DNA from: Cupriavidus sp. WKF15
Lineage (GTDB): Bacteria; Pseudomonadota; Gammaproteobacteria; Burkholderiales; Burkholderiaceae
Assembly: GCF_029278605.1 (NCBI RefSeq)
Contig: NZ_CP119572.1
Location: 3,286,001 to 3,350,000, forward strand
Reading direction: 5' to 3'
DNA: 64,000 nucleotides
The notes below the pieces were generated by a model. That model was not told the DNA's origin and made no database searches. It saw nothing but the letters and a program-made list of their open reading frames with translations. This document shows, one piece after another, positions 3,958-9,860 of the stretch (position 1 is the stretch's first letter; every line of letters begins with the position of its first letter). The position numbers and the translations under genes are program-made.

Positions 3958-4659
3958 ATGAGCACGCCCGCCTACCGCATCGCCCCGTCCATCCTGTCCG
4001 CCGACTTTGCCCGCCTGGGCGAGGAAGTCCGCCGCGTGACCGAGGCCGGCGCCGACTGGATCCACTTCGACGTGATGGACAACCACTACGTCCCGAACCT
4101 GACGGTGGGCCCGCTGGTGTGCGAGGCCATCCGCCCGCACGTGACCGCGCCGATCGACGTGCACCTGATGGTGCGCCCGGTGGACCGCATCATCCCCGAC
4201 TTCGCCAAGGCCGGTGCCAATATCATCACCTTCCACCCGGAAGCCAGCGAGCACGTGGACCGCTCGCTCGCGCTGATCCGCGACAACGGCTGCCAGGCCG
4301 GGCTGGTGTTCAACCCGGCCACGCCGCTGCACCACCTGGACCACGTGATGGACCGCCTCGACGTGATCCTGCTGATGTCGGTCAACCCGGGCTTCGGCGG
4401 CCAGTCGTTCATCCCCGAGACGCTGAACAAGCTGCGCGCGGTGCGCCAGCGCATCGACGCCTATACCGAGCGCACCGGCCGCAAGATCCTGCTGGAAGTC
4501 GATGGTGGCGTGAAGGTGGACAACATCGCCGAGATCGCCGCGGCCGGCGCCGACACCTTCGTGGCCGGCTCGGCCGTGTTCGGCAAGCCCGATGCGGACG
4601 GCGGCTACCGGGGCATTATTTCGGCGCTGCGCGCGGAACTGGCCAAGGCCGGCCAATGA
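3958..4659 (+). CDS. rpe: Ribulose-phosphate 3-epimerase
   Basis: Interconverts ribulose 5-phosphate and xylulose 5-phosphate in the pentose phosphate (and, in autotrophs, Calvin) pathway. The 233-residue TIM barrel shows the signature strands [32 protein letters not shown] (metal-binding His and catalytic Asp), [16 protein letters not shown] and the phosphate-binding VDGGV ... [14 protein letters not shown]. The ATG at 3958 gives the standard N-terminus. The stop overlaps the gph start (ATGA), so the two genes are translationally coupled. Confidence 0.97.
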
Positions 4660-5393
4660 GCGCCGGCATGACGCTGCGCCGCACCGACTGGCGCGGCATC
4701 GACGGCGTGATCGTCGACCTGGACGGCACCATGGTCGACACCGCGGGCGATTTCCACGCCTCGATCAACGCCATGCTGCTGGCGCTTGGGCACCGGTACC
4801 CAAACCTGGGGCCGGTGGCGCCGATGTCCGAACAGGACATTGTCAGCTTCGTCGGCAAGGGCTCGGAAAACCTGATCCGGCGCGTGCTCGATGCGCGCTT
4901 TGCCCCGCTGCACGCCAACGGCCTGTTCGCCGAGGCCTATGCGCTCTACGACCGCGAGTACATCCGCATCAACGGCCAGTTCTCGCAGGTCTACCCGGGC
5001 GTGCGCGAAGGCCTGGCGGCGCTGAAGGCGGCCGGGCTGCGCATGGCGTGCGTGACCAACAAGCCCTACAACTTCACCGAGCCGCTGCTGGCCAAGACCG
5101 GTCTCGCGCAGTATTTCGAGCTGGTCTATGGCGGCGACGCGTTTCCGCTGCGCAAGCCGGACCCATACCCGCTGCTCAAGGTGGCCGAGGTTTTCCACCT
5201 CGATCCGTCGGCCATGCTGGCCATCGGCGACTCGGAAAACGACGCGCAGGCGGCCCGCGCGGCCGGCATGGGCGTGCTGCTGATGCCCTATGGCTACAAC
5301 CATGGCAACCCTGTACAAGGCGTCGACGCCGATGGTATAGTCGATTCCATTGCCCGCGTGGCAGAGCTTCTTTCTGCACACGAGATTCACTGA
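4656..5393 (+). CDS. gph: Phosphoglycolate phosphatase (HAD family)
   Basis: HAD-superfamily phosphatase that dephosphorylates 2-phosphoglycolate from oxidative damage or Rubisco oxygenation. The 245-residue protein has motif I DLDGT (nucleophile Asp21, acid Asp23), motif II VTNKP, and motifs [14 protein letters not shown] ... [15 protein letters not shown]. The start at 4656 overlaps the rpe stop by 4 nt; an internal ATG at 4668 is possible. It lies between rpe and the trp leader, the usual gph-trpE linkage. Substrate choice within the HAD family is inferred from this context. Confidence 0.92.
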
Positions 5394-5445
5394 AAACCAC
5401 GCTGAAAACCACGGCAATCAGATTTCTACAGCCCTGAACACCTCA

Positions 5446-5532
5446 ATGTTCGTCAACCGCAAACGCATATCTTCTGGCAGTGATCGGCAGGCCTGGCCCT
5501 GGCGTCGCTGGCGCGCCTCCCAACAGGCGTAA
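5446..5532 (+). CDS. trpL: Predicted trp operon leader peptide (28 aa, Trp-rich)
   Basis: A short ATG frame ending in TAA, 294 bp before trpE, encodes 28 residues. Three of six consecutive codons near the end are Trp (W-P-W-R-R-W; TGG at 5494, 5500 and 5509), against a very low background frequency of Trp. Stalling here during Trp shortage would be the classical signal for transcription attenuation. The stop is followed by several hairpins (next entry). No strong Shine-Dalgarno precedes the ATG. The same frame is open from 5350, so a longer leader is possible. Identification is by composition and position, not by similarity. Confidence 0.7.
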   Translation: MFVNRKRISSGSDRQAWPWRRWRASQQA

Positions 5533-5825
5533 AGTGCGTTCGCGAGTCCGCTGAGGGCCTTCGTACCGAAGGCCTTCGCAACCGGCCAGGGTGCCGGCAT
5601 CCTTACTGGATCCCTCCTCACTCCCGCCAGCAAGCGTAGCCGCATGTGCTACGTTTAGCTCAAGAACGCGCCACACGCCGCCCAGGCCGTGTGCGGTCTT
5701 GTCCGCAGTCTTCCCGCACCACGGTTCCACACCCGGAGCTGGCTTTGCGCCATCTCCCGCCGAATTGCCGACACCGCGGCGCCGCGCCACCCTGATAACG
5801 CCGCGCGCCGCAAACGAGGATCGAC
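5533..5825 (+). promoter_or_regulatory. trp leader RNA / putative attenuator upstream of trpE
   Basis: This stretch holds no other convincing gene. Visible hairpins are: CGCCT/AGGCG just after the Trp codons (5514-5518 with 5525-5529); GGCCTTCG/CGAAGGCC (5556-5563 with 5567-5574), extendable to 11 bp with one wobble (5553-5577); and a 9-bp stem (5632-5640 with 5648-5656) followed by TTT only in its own arm. The AACGCAT at 5462 could also pair with GTGCGTT at 5544. Mutually exclusive pairing is therefore plausible, but no hairpin has a long U run, so which one is the terminator cannot be decided by eye. An AGGA ribosome site sits 6-9 bases before the trpE ATG. Confidence 0.55.
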
Positions 5826-7343
5826 ATGACCGAACTGGAATTCAAATCGCTGGCCGACCAGGGCTACAACCGCATCCCGCTGATCGCCGAGGCCTTTGCC
5901 GACCTGGAAACGCCGCTGTCGCTGTACCTGAAGCTGGCCCAGTCGCAGACGCGCGGCGTCAACACCTTCCTGCTGGAATCGGTGGTGGGCGGCGAGCGCT
6001 TCGGGCGCTACTCGTTCATCGGCCTGCATGCCCGCACGCTGCTGCGCTCCTACGGCAACCGCGCCGAGGTCGTGACCGACGGCAAGGTCGTGGAGACCCA
6101 CGAAGGCAACCCGCTCGATTTCATCGCCGAGTTCGAGAGCCGCTTCAAGGTGGCGCTGCGCCCCGGCCTGCCGCGCTTCTGCGGCGGCCTGGCCGGCTAC
6201 TTCGGCTACGACGCGGTGCGCTATATCGAGAAGAAGCTGGCCGACACGCAGAAGCCTGACGACCTGGGCCTGCCCGACATCCAGCTGCTGCTGTGCGAAG
6301 AGCTTGCCGTGATCGACAACCTGTCCGGCAAGCTCTACCTGATCGTCTACGCCGACCCGACCACGCCCGAAGCCTACCCGCGCGCGCGCCAGCGCCTGCG
6401 CGAGCTGCGCATGAAGCTGCGCCAGCCGGTGGACGTACCGGTCACGAGCCCGTCGGTGCAGACCGATGTCTACCGCGAATTCGACAAGGCCGACTACCTC
6501 GCCGCGGTGCACAAGGCCAAGGAATACATCATGGCCGGCGACATGATGCAGGTGCAGATCGGCCAGCGCCTGACCAAGCCGTACCGCGACGCGCCGCTGT
6601 CGCTGTACCGCGCGCTGCGCTCGCTGAACCCGTCGCCGTATATGTACTTCTACAACTTCGGCGACTTCCAGATCGTCGGCGCCTCGCCGGAAATCCTGGT
6701 GCGCCAGGAGTCGCGCAAGGTCGGCACCAACGGCGATACCCGCAACGAGCATATCGTCACCATCCGCCCGCTGGCCGGCACGCGCCCGCGCGGCAACACG
6801 CCCGAGAAGGACGCCCAGCTCGCCACCGAACTGCTCAACGACCCGAAGGAGATCGCCGAGCACGTGATGCTGATCGACCTGGCGCGCAACGATATCGGCC
6901 GCATTGCCGAGACCGGCACGGTCAAGGTCACCGACAAGATGGTGATCGAGAAGTACTCGCACGTGCAGCACATCGTCAGCTCGGTCGAAGGCACGCTGCG
7001 CCCGGGAATGAGCAACCTGGACGTGCTGCGCGCCACCTTCCCGGCCGGCACGCTATCGGGCGCGCCCAAGGTGCGCGCGATGGAGATCATCGACGAGCTG
7101 GAGCCGCGCAAGCGCGGCATCTATGGCGGTGCCGTGGGCTACCTGTCGTTCGGCGGCGAGATGGACCTGGCGATCGCCATCCGCACCGGCATCATCAAGG
7201 ACGGCAACCTCTACGTGCAGGCCGCGGCCGGCATCGTCGCCGACTCGGACCCCGAAGCCGAATGGAGGGAAACCGAAGCCAAGGCGCGCGCCGTGATCCG
7301 CGCCGCCGAGCAGGTCCAGGATGGCCTGGACTCCGACATCTGA
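5826..7343 (+). CDS. trpE: Anthranilate synthase component I
   Basis: Converts chorismate plus ammonia from TrpG to anthranilate, the first committed step of tryptophan synthesis. The 505-residue length is normal. The N-terminal half carries the feedback site region ([16 protein letters not shown]), and the chorismate-binding half shows [75 protein letters not shown] and GGAVGYLSF. The SPYMYFYN segment is part of the catalytic core. It starts the trpE-G-D-C cluster, with trpG 17 bp behind. Expression is probably set by the leader upstream. Confidence 0.97.
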
Positions 7344-7360: not shown

Positions 7361-7930
7361 ATGCTGCTGATGATCGACAACTACGATTCCTTTACCTACA
7401 ACCTGGTTCAGTACTTCGGCGAACTCGGCGAGGACGTGCGCACCTACCGCAACGACGAAATCTCGCTGGAAGAGATCGAGGCGCTCAAACCCAACCACAT
7501 CTGCGTGTCGCCCGGCCCGTGCAGCCCGAAGGAAGCCGGCATCTCGGTCGCCGTGCTGCAGCACTTCGCAGGAAAGGTGCCGCTGCTCGGCGTATGCCTG
7601 GGCCACCAAGCCATCGGCGAGGCCTTCGGCGGCAAGGTGATCCGCGCCAAGAAGGTCATGCACGGCAAGGTCAGCACCATCGAGACCACGCAGGAAGGCG
7701 TGTTCTCCGGCCTGCCGAAGCACTTCGACGTGACGCGCTATCATTCGCTGGCGATCGAGCGCGAAACCCTGCCCGATTGCCTGGAAGTGACCGCCTGGAC
7801 GCCTGACGGCGAGATCATGGGCGTGCGCCACAAGACGCTGGCGATCGAGGGCGTGCAGTTCCACCCCGAGTCGATCCTTTCCGAACACGGCCATGCGCTG
7901 CTGGCCAACTTCCTGAAGACGACGCGATGA
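7361..7930 (+). CDS. trpG: Anthranilate synthase component II (glutamine amidotransferase)
   Basis: Class I glutamine amidotransferase that supplies ammonia to TrpE; in many bacteria lacking a separate PabA it also serves aminodeoxychorismate synthase. The 189-residue protein has the nucleophile Cys79 in GVCLGHQ and the His168/Glu170 pair in QFHPES, plus the N-terminal [14 protein letters not shown] of TrpG/PabA. The ATG at 7361 follows a GGGAGA site. Its TGA overlaps an ATG at 7927 in the trpD frame (ATGA). Confidence 0.96.
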
Positions 7931-7998
7931 GGCTGCTCGATATCCCTACGCCGTCCGTTTCCATCGCGCCGCCCGCCACACCAACGACCGAGACCGCC

Positions 7999-9030
7999 AT
8001 GACCATCACCGCCCAGGAAGCGCTGACCCGCTGCATCGAACACCGCGAGATCTTCCACGACGAGATGCTGCACCTGATGCGCCAGATCATGCAGGCGCAG
8101 ATCTCGCCGGTGATGGCCGCCGCGATCCTGACCGGCCTGCGCGTGAAGAAGGAAACCATCGGCGAGATCTCGGCCGCGGCGCAGGTGATGCGCGAATTCG
8201 CCAACAAGGTCGATGTGGCCGACCGCGAGAACTTCGTCGATATCGTCGGCACCGGCGGCGACGGCTCGCATACCTTCAATATCTCGACCGCCTCGATGTT
8301 CGTGGCCGCCGCCGCCGGGGCGAAGATCGCCAAGCACGGCAACCGCGGCGTGAGCTCCAAGTCGGGCAGCGCCGACGTGCTGGAAGCGCTGGGCGTGAAC
8401 ATCATGCTGACGCCCGAACAGGTCGGCCAGTGCATCGCGCAGACCGGCATCGGCTTCATGTTCGCCCCGACCCACCACCCGGCCATGAAGAACGTGGCGC
8501 CGATCCGCAAGGAGATGGGCGTGCGCACCATCTTCAATATCCTCGGCCCGCTGACCAACCCGGCCGACGCGCCCAACATCCTGATGGGCGTGTTCCACCC
8601 GGATCTCGTCGGCATCCAGGTGCGCGTGATGCAGCGCCTGGGCGCGAAGCACGCGCTGGTGGTCTACGGCAAGGACGGCATGGATGAGGTATCGCTGGGC
8701 GCCGCCACGCTGGTCGGCGAACTGAAGGACGGTGAAGTCCGCGAATACGAGATCCACCCGGAAGACTTCGGCCTGTCGATGATCTCGAACCGCGGCCTGA
8801 AGGTGGCCGATGCGATCGAGTCCAGGGAGATGCTGCTCGAAGCGCTCGGCAACGTGCCCGGTACGCCGCGCGAGATCGTGTCGCTCAACGCGGGCACCGC
8901 GCTGTATGCCGCCAATGTGGCCGATTCCATCGAGGACGGCATCCGCCGCGCGCGCGAAGCCATCGCCAGCGGCGCCGCGCGCGAGAAGCTCGACCAGTTC
9001 GTGCGCGCCACGCAGCAGTTCAAGGCCTGA
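7999..9030 (+). CDS. trpD: Anthranilate phosphoribosyltransferase
   Basis: Transfers phosphoribose from PRPP to anthranilate. The 343-residue protein contains the glycine-rich PRPP loop [14 protein letters not shown] and the anthranilate site [20 protein letters not shown], then [10 protein letters not shown] and [14 protein letters not shown] chose the ATG at 7999 ([10 protein letters not shown]), which matches the usual family N-terminus. The frame is open from an ATG at 7927 overlapping the trpG stop, so a 24-residue longer product starting MRLLDIP is possible and would be translationally coupled. Confidence 0.95.
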
Positions 9031-9056: not shown

Positions 9057-9860
9057 ATGTCCGACATCCTGCAAAAGATCATGGCCGTCAAGGCCGACGA
9101 AGTCGCCGCTGCCCGCAAGAAGCGCGACCTGCCCAGCCTGCGCGCCGAGGCCGAAAGCCTGCGCCACGAGGCCGGCTTCGCCCCGCGCGGCTTCGAACGC
9201 GCGCTGCGCGAGAAGATCGCCGCCGGCCACGCCGGCGTGATCGCCGAGGTCAAGAAGGCCTCGCCGTCCAAGGGCGTGCTGCGCGAGAACTTCGTGCCCG
9301 AGGCGATTGCCGAGAGCTACGCCAGCCATGGCGCCGCCTGCCTGTCGGTGCTGACCGACGTGAACTTCTTCCAGGGCCATGCCGACTACCTCAAGCGCGC
9401 GCGCGGCGCCTGCCCGCTGCCCGCGCTGCGCAAGGACTTCATGCTCGACCTGTACCAGGTCTATGAAGCGCGCACCTGGGGCGCGGACTGCATCCTGCTG
9501 ATCGTCTCGGCGCTCGACCCGGGCCTGATGGCCGACCTGGAAGCCTGCGCGCACGAACTCGGCATGGACGTGCTGGTGGAAGTCCACGGCGGCGACGAGC
9601 TCGACCGCGCGCTGCGCCTGAAGACGCCGCTGCTTGGCGTGAACAACCGCAACCTGCGCACCTTCGAAGTCTCGCTCGACAACACGCTTGAGCTGCTGCC
9701 GCGCATGCCGGCCGATCGCCTCGTGGTCACGGAATCCGGCATCCTGGGCCCGAACGACGTGAAGCGCATGCGCGATGCCGATGTCCATGCCTTCCTGGTC
9801 GGCGAAGCGTTCATGCGCGCGCCGGACCCGGGTGTCGAACTGGCCCGCCTGTTCGCGTAA
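9057..9860 (+). CDS. trpC: Indole-3-glycerol phosphate synthase
   Basis: Closes the indole ring: CdRP to indole-3-glycerol phosphate with loss of CO2 and water. The 267-residue monofunctional form shows [14 protein letters not shown], the catalytic Lys motif [34 protein letters not shown], the proton donor region [22 protein letters not shown] and VTESGI. It is separated from trpD by 26 bp. The cluster ends here: trpF, trpB and trpA are not in this window, the usual split arrangement in beta-proteobacteria. Confidence 0.97.

Follow-up and report, generated by a model that had tools for sequence, protein, structure and literature searches.

The region in front of trpE in Cupriavidus sp. WKF15 raises the question whether a short upstream frame with clustered Trp codons (uORF) is the leader peptide of a trp attenuator, and in which way such a leader could act on trpE with no long U run behind its hairpins. 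Judged from its conservation, the uORF is a genuine trp leader peptide, widespread in Burkholderiales. The new element is that, according to the covariation found in relatives, the first codons of the leader peptide form one half of a conserved RNA helix, the other half being the segment behind the stop codon. This suggests a tryptophan-sensing switch of a known kind with unusual wiring.

Organization of the locus

The window, i.e., the whole stretch of 64,000 nucleotides that was analysed, belongs to a genome of 7.4 Mb, and the closest named relatives of its TrpE are from Cupriavidus (93-99% identity). According to open reading frames and Pfam matches, a ribulose-phosphate epimerase gene and a gph-like hydrolase gene come first, followed by the uORF, trpE, trpG, trpD, and trpC (Table 1); the trp gene names are putative assignments from domains, and the name gph is likewise drawn from Pfam and the neighbouring gene (Ribul_P_3_epim).

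The uORF begins with an ATG at 5446, ends with a TAA at 5530-5532, and encodes the peptide MFVNRKRISSGSDRQAWPWRRWRASQQA; 293 bases separate its stop from the start of trpE at 5826. Its Trp codons are codons 17, 19, and 22, such that the three Trp codons in six positions of a 28-codon frame, from which the original prediction started, are indeed present at 5446-5532. In the host genome there is a single exact copy of the Trp-codon core, along with seven places that differ from it by two mismatches, and no near-identical match of the leader was found on plasmids in PLSDB.

Table 1. Features of the trp leader region and adjacent genes (window positions)
Feature	Position	Strand	Description
gph-like HAD hydrolase gene	4656-5393	+	Pfam HAD/Hydrolase matches; 3' end holds the promoter-like box
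Promoter-like site	5312-5341	+	TGTACA, 18 bases, TATAGT preceded by TG
Extended -10 TGGTATAGT	5333-5341	+	within the 3' end of gph
uORF, predicted trp leader peptide	5446-5532	+	28 codons; TGG at 5494, 5500, 5509
Strand S1	5458-5468	+	codons 5-8; complementary to 5534-5544; A5461 bulged
Alternative helix	5491-5528	+	GCCTG 5491-5495 (codons 16-17) / CAGGC 5524-5528; excludes hairpin H
Hairpin H	5513-5530	+	GCGCCT 5513-5518 / AGGCGT 5525-5530, within last uORF codons
Strand S4	5534-5544	+	directly 3' of the uORF stop
Six-codon GTG..TGA frame	5534-5554	+	overlaps S4; in 57/59 genus rows
Hairpin B	5555-5576	+	arms from 5555 and 5567
Hairpin D	5632-5656	+	5632-5640 / 5648-5656, then AGCTC; missing in some congeners
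Candidate strand S3	5664-5671	+	GAACGCGC; could pair 5534-5541 in place of S1
Hairpin E	5672-5693	+	5672-5677 / 5688-5693, then CGGTCTTGTCC, a poor U-tract
trpE ribosome-binding site	5816-5820	+	GAGGA; within 16 bases 5' of trpE in 59/59 Cupriavidus rows
trpE	5826-7343	+	ORF and Pfam
trpG	7361-7930	+	ORF and Pfam
trpD	7927-9030	+	ORF and Pfam
trpC	9057-9860	+	ORF and Pfam

Conservation of the leader frame

Dinucleotide shuffling of 5394-5825 rarely creates a comparable cluster: among 2000 shuffled sequences, 2 contain a frame of 8-60 codons having three or more Trp within six codons. As the 64-kb window contains 16 stop-anchored frames with such a cluster (10 on the forward and 6 on the reverse strand, uORF included), conservation and not the Trp cluster alone is taken as evidence. 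Within the genus, 60 genomes including that of the window were considered, 59 of which bear trpE (the exception is 54% complete); the uORF lies upstream of trpE in all 59, with its start 356 to 456 bases 5' of the gene. An earlier ATG, 469 bases 5' of trpE, is also possible as the start in L151.

Concerning relatives, 80 trpE loci from Burkholderiaceae, Oxalobacteraceae, and kin were collected, from which L022 was dropped, having no upstream DNA. The leader is found in 78 of the remaining 79, and in L025 as well once the search reached farther; it takes the form W-x-W-R in Ralstonia, Burkholderia, Pandoraea, and Oxalobacteraceae, with two Trp only in the core of L043, L054, and L082. The loss of Trp codons or frame in close relatives, named in the original prediction as evidence against a leader peptide, is thus not observed: both are kept in Cupriavidus, Ralstonia, and Burkholderia, with a promoter-like box 5' of the frame. 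Among 40 further family loci, hand-picked for diversity (L203, L205, and L213 duplicate loci of the relatives' set), 37 carry the leader, and it was not found in L214, L215, and L219. The leader-less L214 belongs to a 1.2 Mb genome. In 40 loci hand-picked to cover further families of the order, at least three Trp in seven codons are present 5' of trpE in 15, vs 5 of 200 shuffles, several of these clusters being WRWRR-like runs.

For the comparisons below, 186 loci were grouped by core motif into 59 Cupriavidus, 57 Burkholderia-like (56 distinct), 37 Oxalobacteraceae-like, 10 Ralstonia-like (8 distinct), 5 WRK, and 10 other loci, 7 in which this search found no uORF (L214 and L241 being one and the same genome), and 1 that could not be oriented. 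Group names follow record titles and are otherwise labels of this analysis; L022, L026, L031, and L041 did not enter the grouping, in which the genus set also took the place of the named Cupriavidus loci L003-L019.

The motif W-P-W-R-R-W is identical in all 27 distinct Cupriavidus uORFs. In a crude count, the share of synonymous codon variants is 0.44 vs 0.23 expected in these 27, 0.43 vs 0.23 in 28 Burkholderia uORFs, and 0.33 vs 0.26 in 6 of Ralstonia; from this variation and the conserved frame, translation of the uORF is predicted. The position of the first Trp is nearly constant, at codon 17 in 56/56 modelled rows of the Burkholderia group and at codons 16-18 in 33 rows of Oxalobacteraceae.

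Promoter-like box and translation signals

Within 260 bases 5' of the uORF, three groups carry the extended -10 box TGGTATAGT without exception (153/153 loci, 152 distinct), i.e., in 59/59 Cupriavidus, 57/57 Burkholderia (56 distinct), and 37/37 of the Oxalobacteraceae group; it is found in 1/10 of the Ralstonia group (8 distinct), in 0/5 WRK, and in 5/10 other loci. Across gph and trpEGDC of the window, which together have 89 Ile codons, the only ATA lies in this box, and ordinary codon preference therefore does not account for it. The promoter would thus lie 5' of the leader frame, and a trpE transcript start downstream of 5532, which would have spoken against the original prediction, is not indicated as far as a start can be read from the sequence.

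A Shine-Dalgarno sequence of the uORF is not evident in any group, the anti-Shine-Dalgarno energy having group means of -0.5 to 1.1 kcal/mol (single loci down to -3.5). At trpE the corresponding values are -3.9 to -6.5, Ralstonia excepted (-0.6).

Some further signals were observed closer to trpE or in variant leaders. Near hairpin D, at 5647-5655, the window contains TGCTACGTT, which is extended -10-like and might serve trpE as an internal promoter; TGCTACG is situated near this hairpin in 44/59 Cupriavidus rows. Oxalobacteraceae loci such as L029, L034, L046, and L081 exhibit TACAATAG between complementary arms in the last 35 bases before trpE, just 5' of its ribosome-binding site, a candidate for a hairpin loop or an internal promoter. 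The uORFs of L252, L258, L262, L263, and L264 encode GAWPWRKP leaders 214-254 bases 5' of trpE, with a TACACT box 6-9 bases before their ATG (by eye; computed for three of the five), and may be leaderless.

A long-range helix between the first codons and the post-stop segment

In the window, C5458-C5460 and A5462-T5468 can pair with 5534-5544 (S1:S4; duplex energy -15.3 kcal/mol). What had been listed as a hairpin with arms at 5462 and 5544 is hence a long-range pairing with arms 5458-5468 and 5534-5544. A duplex search of the early uORF codons against the post-uORF segment recovered a similar S1 partner in nearly all Burkholderia and Ralstonia and in many Oxalobacteraceae loci, and none in WRK and the other groups. 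The counterpart of S4 in Burkholderia and Oxalobacteraceae is mostly a terminator-like U-run: it reads CCGTTTTTTA/G and is situated behind a hairpin in Burkholderia, and CGTTTTTTG or variants thereof in Oxalobacteraceae. Ralstonia possesses GCGTTTGC at this place, and in Pandoraea the strand AAGAAACGG is matched by CCGTTTCTT; other co-varying strand pairs are AACAACAAACG with CGTTTGTTGT and ATAACAAAC with GTTTGTTAT.

Compared to shuffled S4, the mean z of S1:S4 is -3.1 to -3.6 in four groups. Own partners are surpassed by swapped ones in 0/2000 permutations in Burkholderia, 0/2000 in Oxalobacteraceae, and 45/2000 in Cupriavidus, values that are not corrected for relatedness; for Ralstonia (495/2000) the comparison comprises four distinct rows and is uninformative. 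In 51 distinct rows of the Burkholderia group, 98.3% of cells pair in S1:S4 together with the hairpin before S4, and 98.6% in S1:S4 alone; with the partner slid by 1-3 columns 40-58% are paired, and 0/500 shuffles reach the observed values. The synonymous third base of codon 4, which codes another residue in three of these rows, faces the base after the U-run as UA in 25, CG in 23, and UG in 1 row, and is unpaired in 2. On a trpE tree of 64 loci, 12 rows having other letters or S4 forms were dropped, and of the 52 with both letters 50 are Watson-Crick and 2 wobble, each side having changed at least six times; an independent-pairs test yields 4 supported pairs, on average 3.5 in the right direction and 0 against (sign test p 0.125).

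Within Cupriavidus both strands are nearly invariant, with 99.3% of cells pairing vs 99.0 in shuffles and 5 further pair types vs 5.1 (L201, whose aligned stretch was cut such that it lacks S4, was counted as gaps); L155 exhibits a C-G to U-A double change in the helix. For Oxalobacteraceae, alignment A2 (34 rows, L081 and L082 left out) misplaced the U-run in one clade and was not used for the tool counts. In an alternative alignment with 28 distinct patterns, 75% of cells are paired vs 71% with S4 swapped (reached in 0/1000 shuffles), with 13 further pair types vs 9.6 (reached in 31/1000). RNAalifold picks S1:S4 unprompted in each of the two alignments to which it was applied, the stretches having been pre-cut to include both strands. 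Covariation in relatives thus supports S1:S4 as a conserved structure.

Other hairpins and alternative strands

The arms of all four hairpins of the original prediction exist (5462/5544, 5514/5525, 5555/5567, 5632/5648); they are not mutually exclusive as had been supposed, because they are nested or situated side by side. Two other pairs of structures are candidates for exclusivity: 5534-5541 could pair either with 5462-5468 on its 5' side or with 5664-5671 on its 3' side, and GCCTG/CAGGC would compete with hairpin H. In hairpin H 100% of cells are paired, one pair being changed on both sides (2 cells). The GCCTG/CAGGC helix, taken from RNAalifold (56 rows), has no change on both sides and is near zero in ribosome-free as well as ribosome-blocked ensembles, hence weak.

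Concerning the forward partner of S4, the motif GAAYGY of S3 is present in 58/59 rows vs 202 of 1180 shuffles (17%), and the S4:S3 pairing energy is no better than in shuffles (mean z -0.19, 59 rows), so that S3 is a candidate only. The stem of hairpin B exhibits changes between congeners that look compensatory by eye. Codons 5-6 of the six-codon GTG..TGA frame are variable among genus rows; this frame may be a by-product of RNA constraint, as Burkholderia is (by eye) without it.

Terminators and folding models

A terminator scan of 5533-5825 found no intrinsic U-run terminator on the forward strand, in agreement with the original observation that a long U run is lacking after the hairpins. 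A T-run of at least 5 in S4 is found in 45/55 Burkholderia and 27/37 Oxalobacteraceae, and in 0/59 Cupriavidus and 0/10 Ralstonia rows; in the latter two even a run of at least 4 is missing (0/59 and 0/10). S1:S4 persists in these two groups and hence has a wider distribution than the U-run.

The minimum-energy fold of the ribosome-free window leader is more stable than 100/100 shuffles and contains no S1:S4, the ensemble having 0.0 expected pairs for S1:S4 and 6.0 for S4:S3. Averaged over 58 Cupriavidus rows, the expected number of S4 pairs in ribosome-free RNA is 3.9 for S1 and 4.1 for S3; a ribosome positioned at codon 17 tips this towards S3 (2.3 for S1 vs 5.9 for S3). With a ribosome at the stop codon both S4 pairings vanish, because the modelling forbade those bases. 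In most of the 56 Burkholderia and 33 Oxalobacteraceae rows modelled (five were dropped, S4 not being located by the script), the hairpin is formed alongside S1:S4 at equilibrium. When placed at the stop, a ribosome strengthens the hairpin before the U-tract in 28/55 Burkholderia rows and weakens it in 7; for Oxalobacteraceae the numbers are 4/37 and 7.

A clean two-state switch is consequently not seen in equilibrium folding with a blocked ribosome footprint in Cupriavidus, Burkholderia, or Oxalobacteraceae. A simple antiterminator, with S1 invading the terminator hairpin, is rejected as a general model, since hairpin and S1:S4 coexist in most rows. A classical switch with only the RNA 5' of the U-run available receives mild support in Burkholderia and none in Oxalobacteraceae.

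Proposed mechanism and alternative explanations

We regard the leader as a variant of ribosome-mediated trp attenuation, the output step of which we infer. In the leader of trpEGDC, the position of the ribosome at the Trp codons probably sets the partner of S4 and hence the access to trpE. Transcription would begin around 100 bases 5' of the uORF, at the box in gph, and a ribosome would load on the uORF despite the lack of an evident Shine-Dalgarno sequence. With charged Trp-tRNA scarce, it would stall once Trp codon 17 or 19 has reached the A site. A stalled ribosome covers about 15 bases on either side; at codon 17 it would occupy the RNA from around codon 11 onward, so that codons 5-8, immediately 5' of it, stay accessible. 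Without a ribosome, S4 could pair back to S1 or forward to S3. As S4 follows the stop directly in Cupriavidus, a ribosome completing the peptide could cover it and block both pairings. The partner of S4 would then decide whether RNA polymerase or ribosomes arrive at trpE, less Trp leading presumably to more trpE. The output would be premature transcription termination within the 293-base C-rich tract, brought about in Cupriavidus either by Rho or by a weak hairpin, and in Burkholderia and Oxalobacteraceae by the U-run terminator. The sensing part of this scheme is well supported by the conserved sequence; stalling, response direction, the role of S3, and the output step are what we infer from it. 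Concerning the layout, it is conceivable, if somewhat short of an even chance, that N-terminal codons upstream of the control codons close around the stalled ribosome and pair with the U-run segment, that selection keeps this pairing and not the U-run, and that Cupriavidus and Ralstonia switch without an intrinsic terminator.

Two alternatives concern the output. Termination might depend on Rho, loaded by the untranslated C-rich 293 bases and gated by the uORF ribosome together with the partner of S4, which we consider possible but rather doubtful. The missing U-run terminator agrees with the suspicion of Rho voiced in the original prediction; the post-stop segment contains 115 C and 81 G, long tracts are kept (on average 317 bases in Cupriavidus and 292 in Ralstonia), and the leaders of both have more C than G (0.39/0.29 and 0.38/0.27). 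The excess of C is modest, however, and Burkholderia is alike (0.36/0.28) though mostly equipped with U-runs. Rather unlikely in our estimation is an output at the level of translation or RNA decay, with S1:S4 shutting the early uORF codons to further initiation as soon as S4 has been transcribed, and the fold of the leader setting translation or decay of trpE. A helix over codons 4-8 could easily block a uORF that has no evident Shine-Dalgarno sequence, and S1:S4 is retained not only in Cupriavidus and Ralstonia but also in Pandoraea and several Oxalobacteraceae with a broken or lost U-run. Moreover, as follows from what is established for intrinsic termination, a U-run becomes available to S1 only when it has emerged from the polymerase. 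Against this output, S4 in Burkholderia and Oxalobacteraceae is mostly a U-run behind a hairpin, terminator-like, although several bases often intervene between hairpin and U-run, and trpE is around 280 bases distant in Cupriavidus.

Two others concern the arrest of the ribosome and the S1:S4 match itself. TnaC is known for peptide-caused ribosome arrest with free Trp as ligand, and a similar arrest by WPWRRW would fit the invariance of this motif in Cupriavidus; across the order, however, the core shifts to RWWRW, WRWRR, etc., with only the richness in Trp kept, and induction by free Trp would run in the wrong direction for a biosynthetic operon, which makes nascent-peptide arrest very improbable. 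Hardly credible at all is an incidental match, in which the Lys codons AAA AAA merely happen to fit the U-run of the terminator. The canonical Burkholderia form is indeed partly A6 to U6 and of low complexity, but the pairing runs on into CGG/CCG, tracks the synonymous base, and is kept after loss of the A- and U-runs on both sides (AACAACAAACG/CGTTTGTTGT, AAGAAACGG/CCGTTTCTT, CGCAAACGC/GCGTTTGC).

Comparison with known leaders

Attenuation governed by ribosome position remains our preferred reading, and the leader resembles the trpL attenuator of E. coli in that a short peptide with a cluster of Trp codons immediately precedes trpE, in that leader-RNA helices may compete, and in that one strand would be covered when a ribosome reaches the stop codon. 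Despite this similarity, there are several differences: the conserved helix joins codons upstream of the Trp codons to the post-stop segment, the Cupriavidus leader possesses neither a U-run terminator nor an evident Shine-Dalgarno sequence of the uORF, three spaced Trp codons replace two adjacent ones, and the one host genome searched contains no match to the TrpR family. Because the intrinsic terminator is missing, the window leader is not filed as an ordinary attenuator of the E. coli type; by their sequences, the relatives in Burkholderia and Oxalobacteraceae come closer to the strict definition. In the Comamonadaceae-like loci (a label of this analysis) L253, L255, L256, and L265, RWWR peptides are followed by a GC hairpin and a U-run, by eye a textbook attenuator layout.

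Rfam has no match at gathering score in the window and none at E up to 5 for 5300-5900; neither its Trp leader family nor the T-box matched in the window by covariance model. NCBIfam (window peptide and two relatives, E up to 10) and Pfam (window peptide and one relative, E up to 0.001) returned no family.

The leader is similar to trpLE(G) of Sinorhizobium meliloti (rnTrpL/peTrpL; PMC7298713) in having a Trp uORF before trpE and attenuation without transcriptional repression. The 14-residue peptide and the leader RNA of S. meliloti are reported there to act in trans, of which the Cupriavidus leader, known here from sequence alone, gives no sign; the leaderless uORF of S. meliloti resembles Alcaligenaceae-like loci and not the uORF of the window. 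The uORFC motifs (PMC8632094), known from comparative RNA searches, likewise combine a conserved start codon, control codons, and structure beside a biosynthetic or synthetase gene, but are associated with different genes; neither trpE nor Burkholderia or Ralstonia is named in the main text of that paper, and trp is not mentioned in the main text of PMC4603805. A search of open-access literature by title and beginning of the abstract gave no trp leader of Cupriavidus, Ralstonia, or Burkholderia among the matches listed, which leaves absence from print unproven.

Implications

For Burkholderiales, to which many bacteria from soil, plants, and clinical settings belong, the leader provides a concrete candidate for the control of trpE by Trp. 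The conserved first residues (MFLNKKR and similar) of a peptide that is itself thrown away would be explained as RNA pairing partners, and the question arises whether a helix enclosing the stalled ribosome may serve as the decision element where a U-run terminator is lacking.
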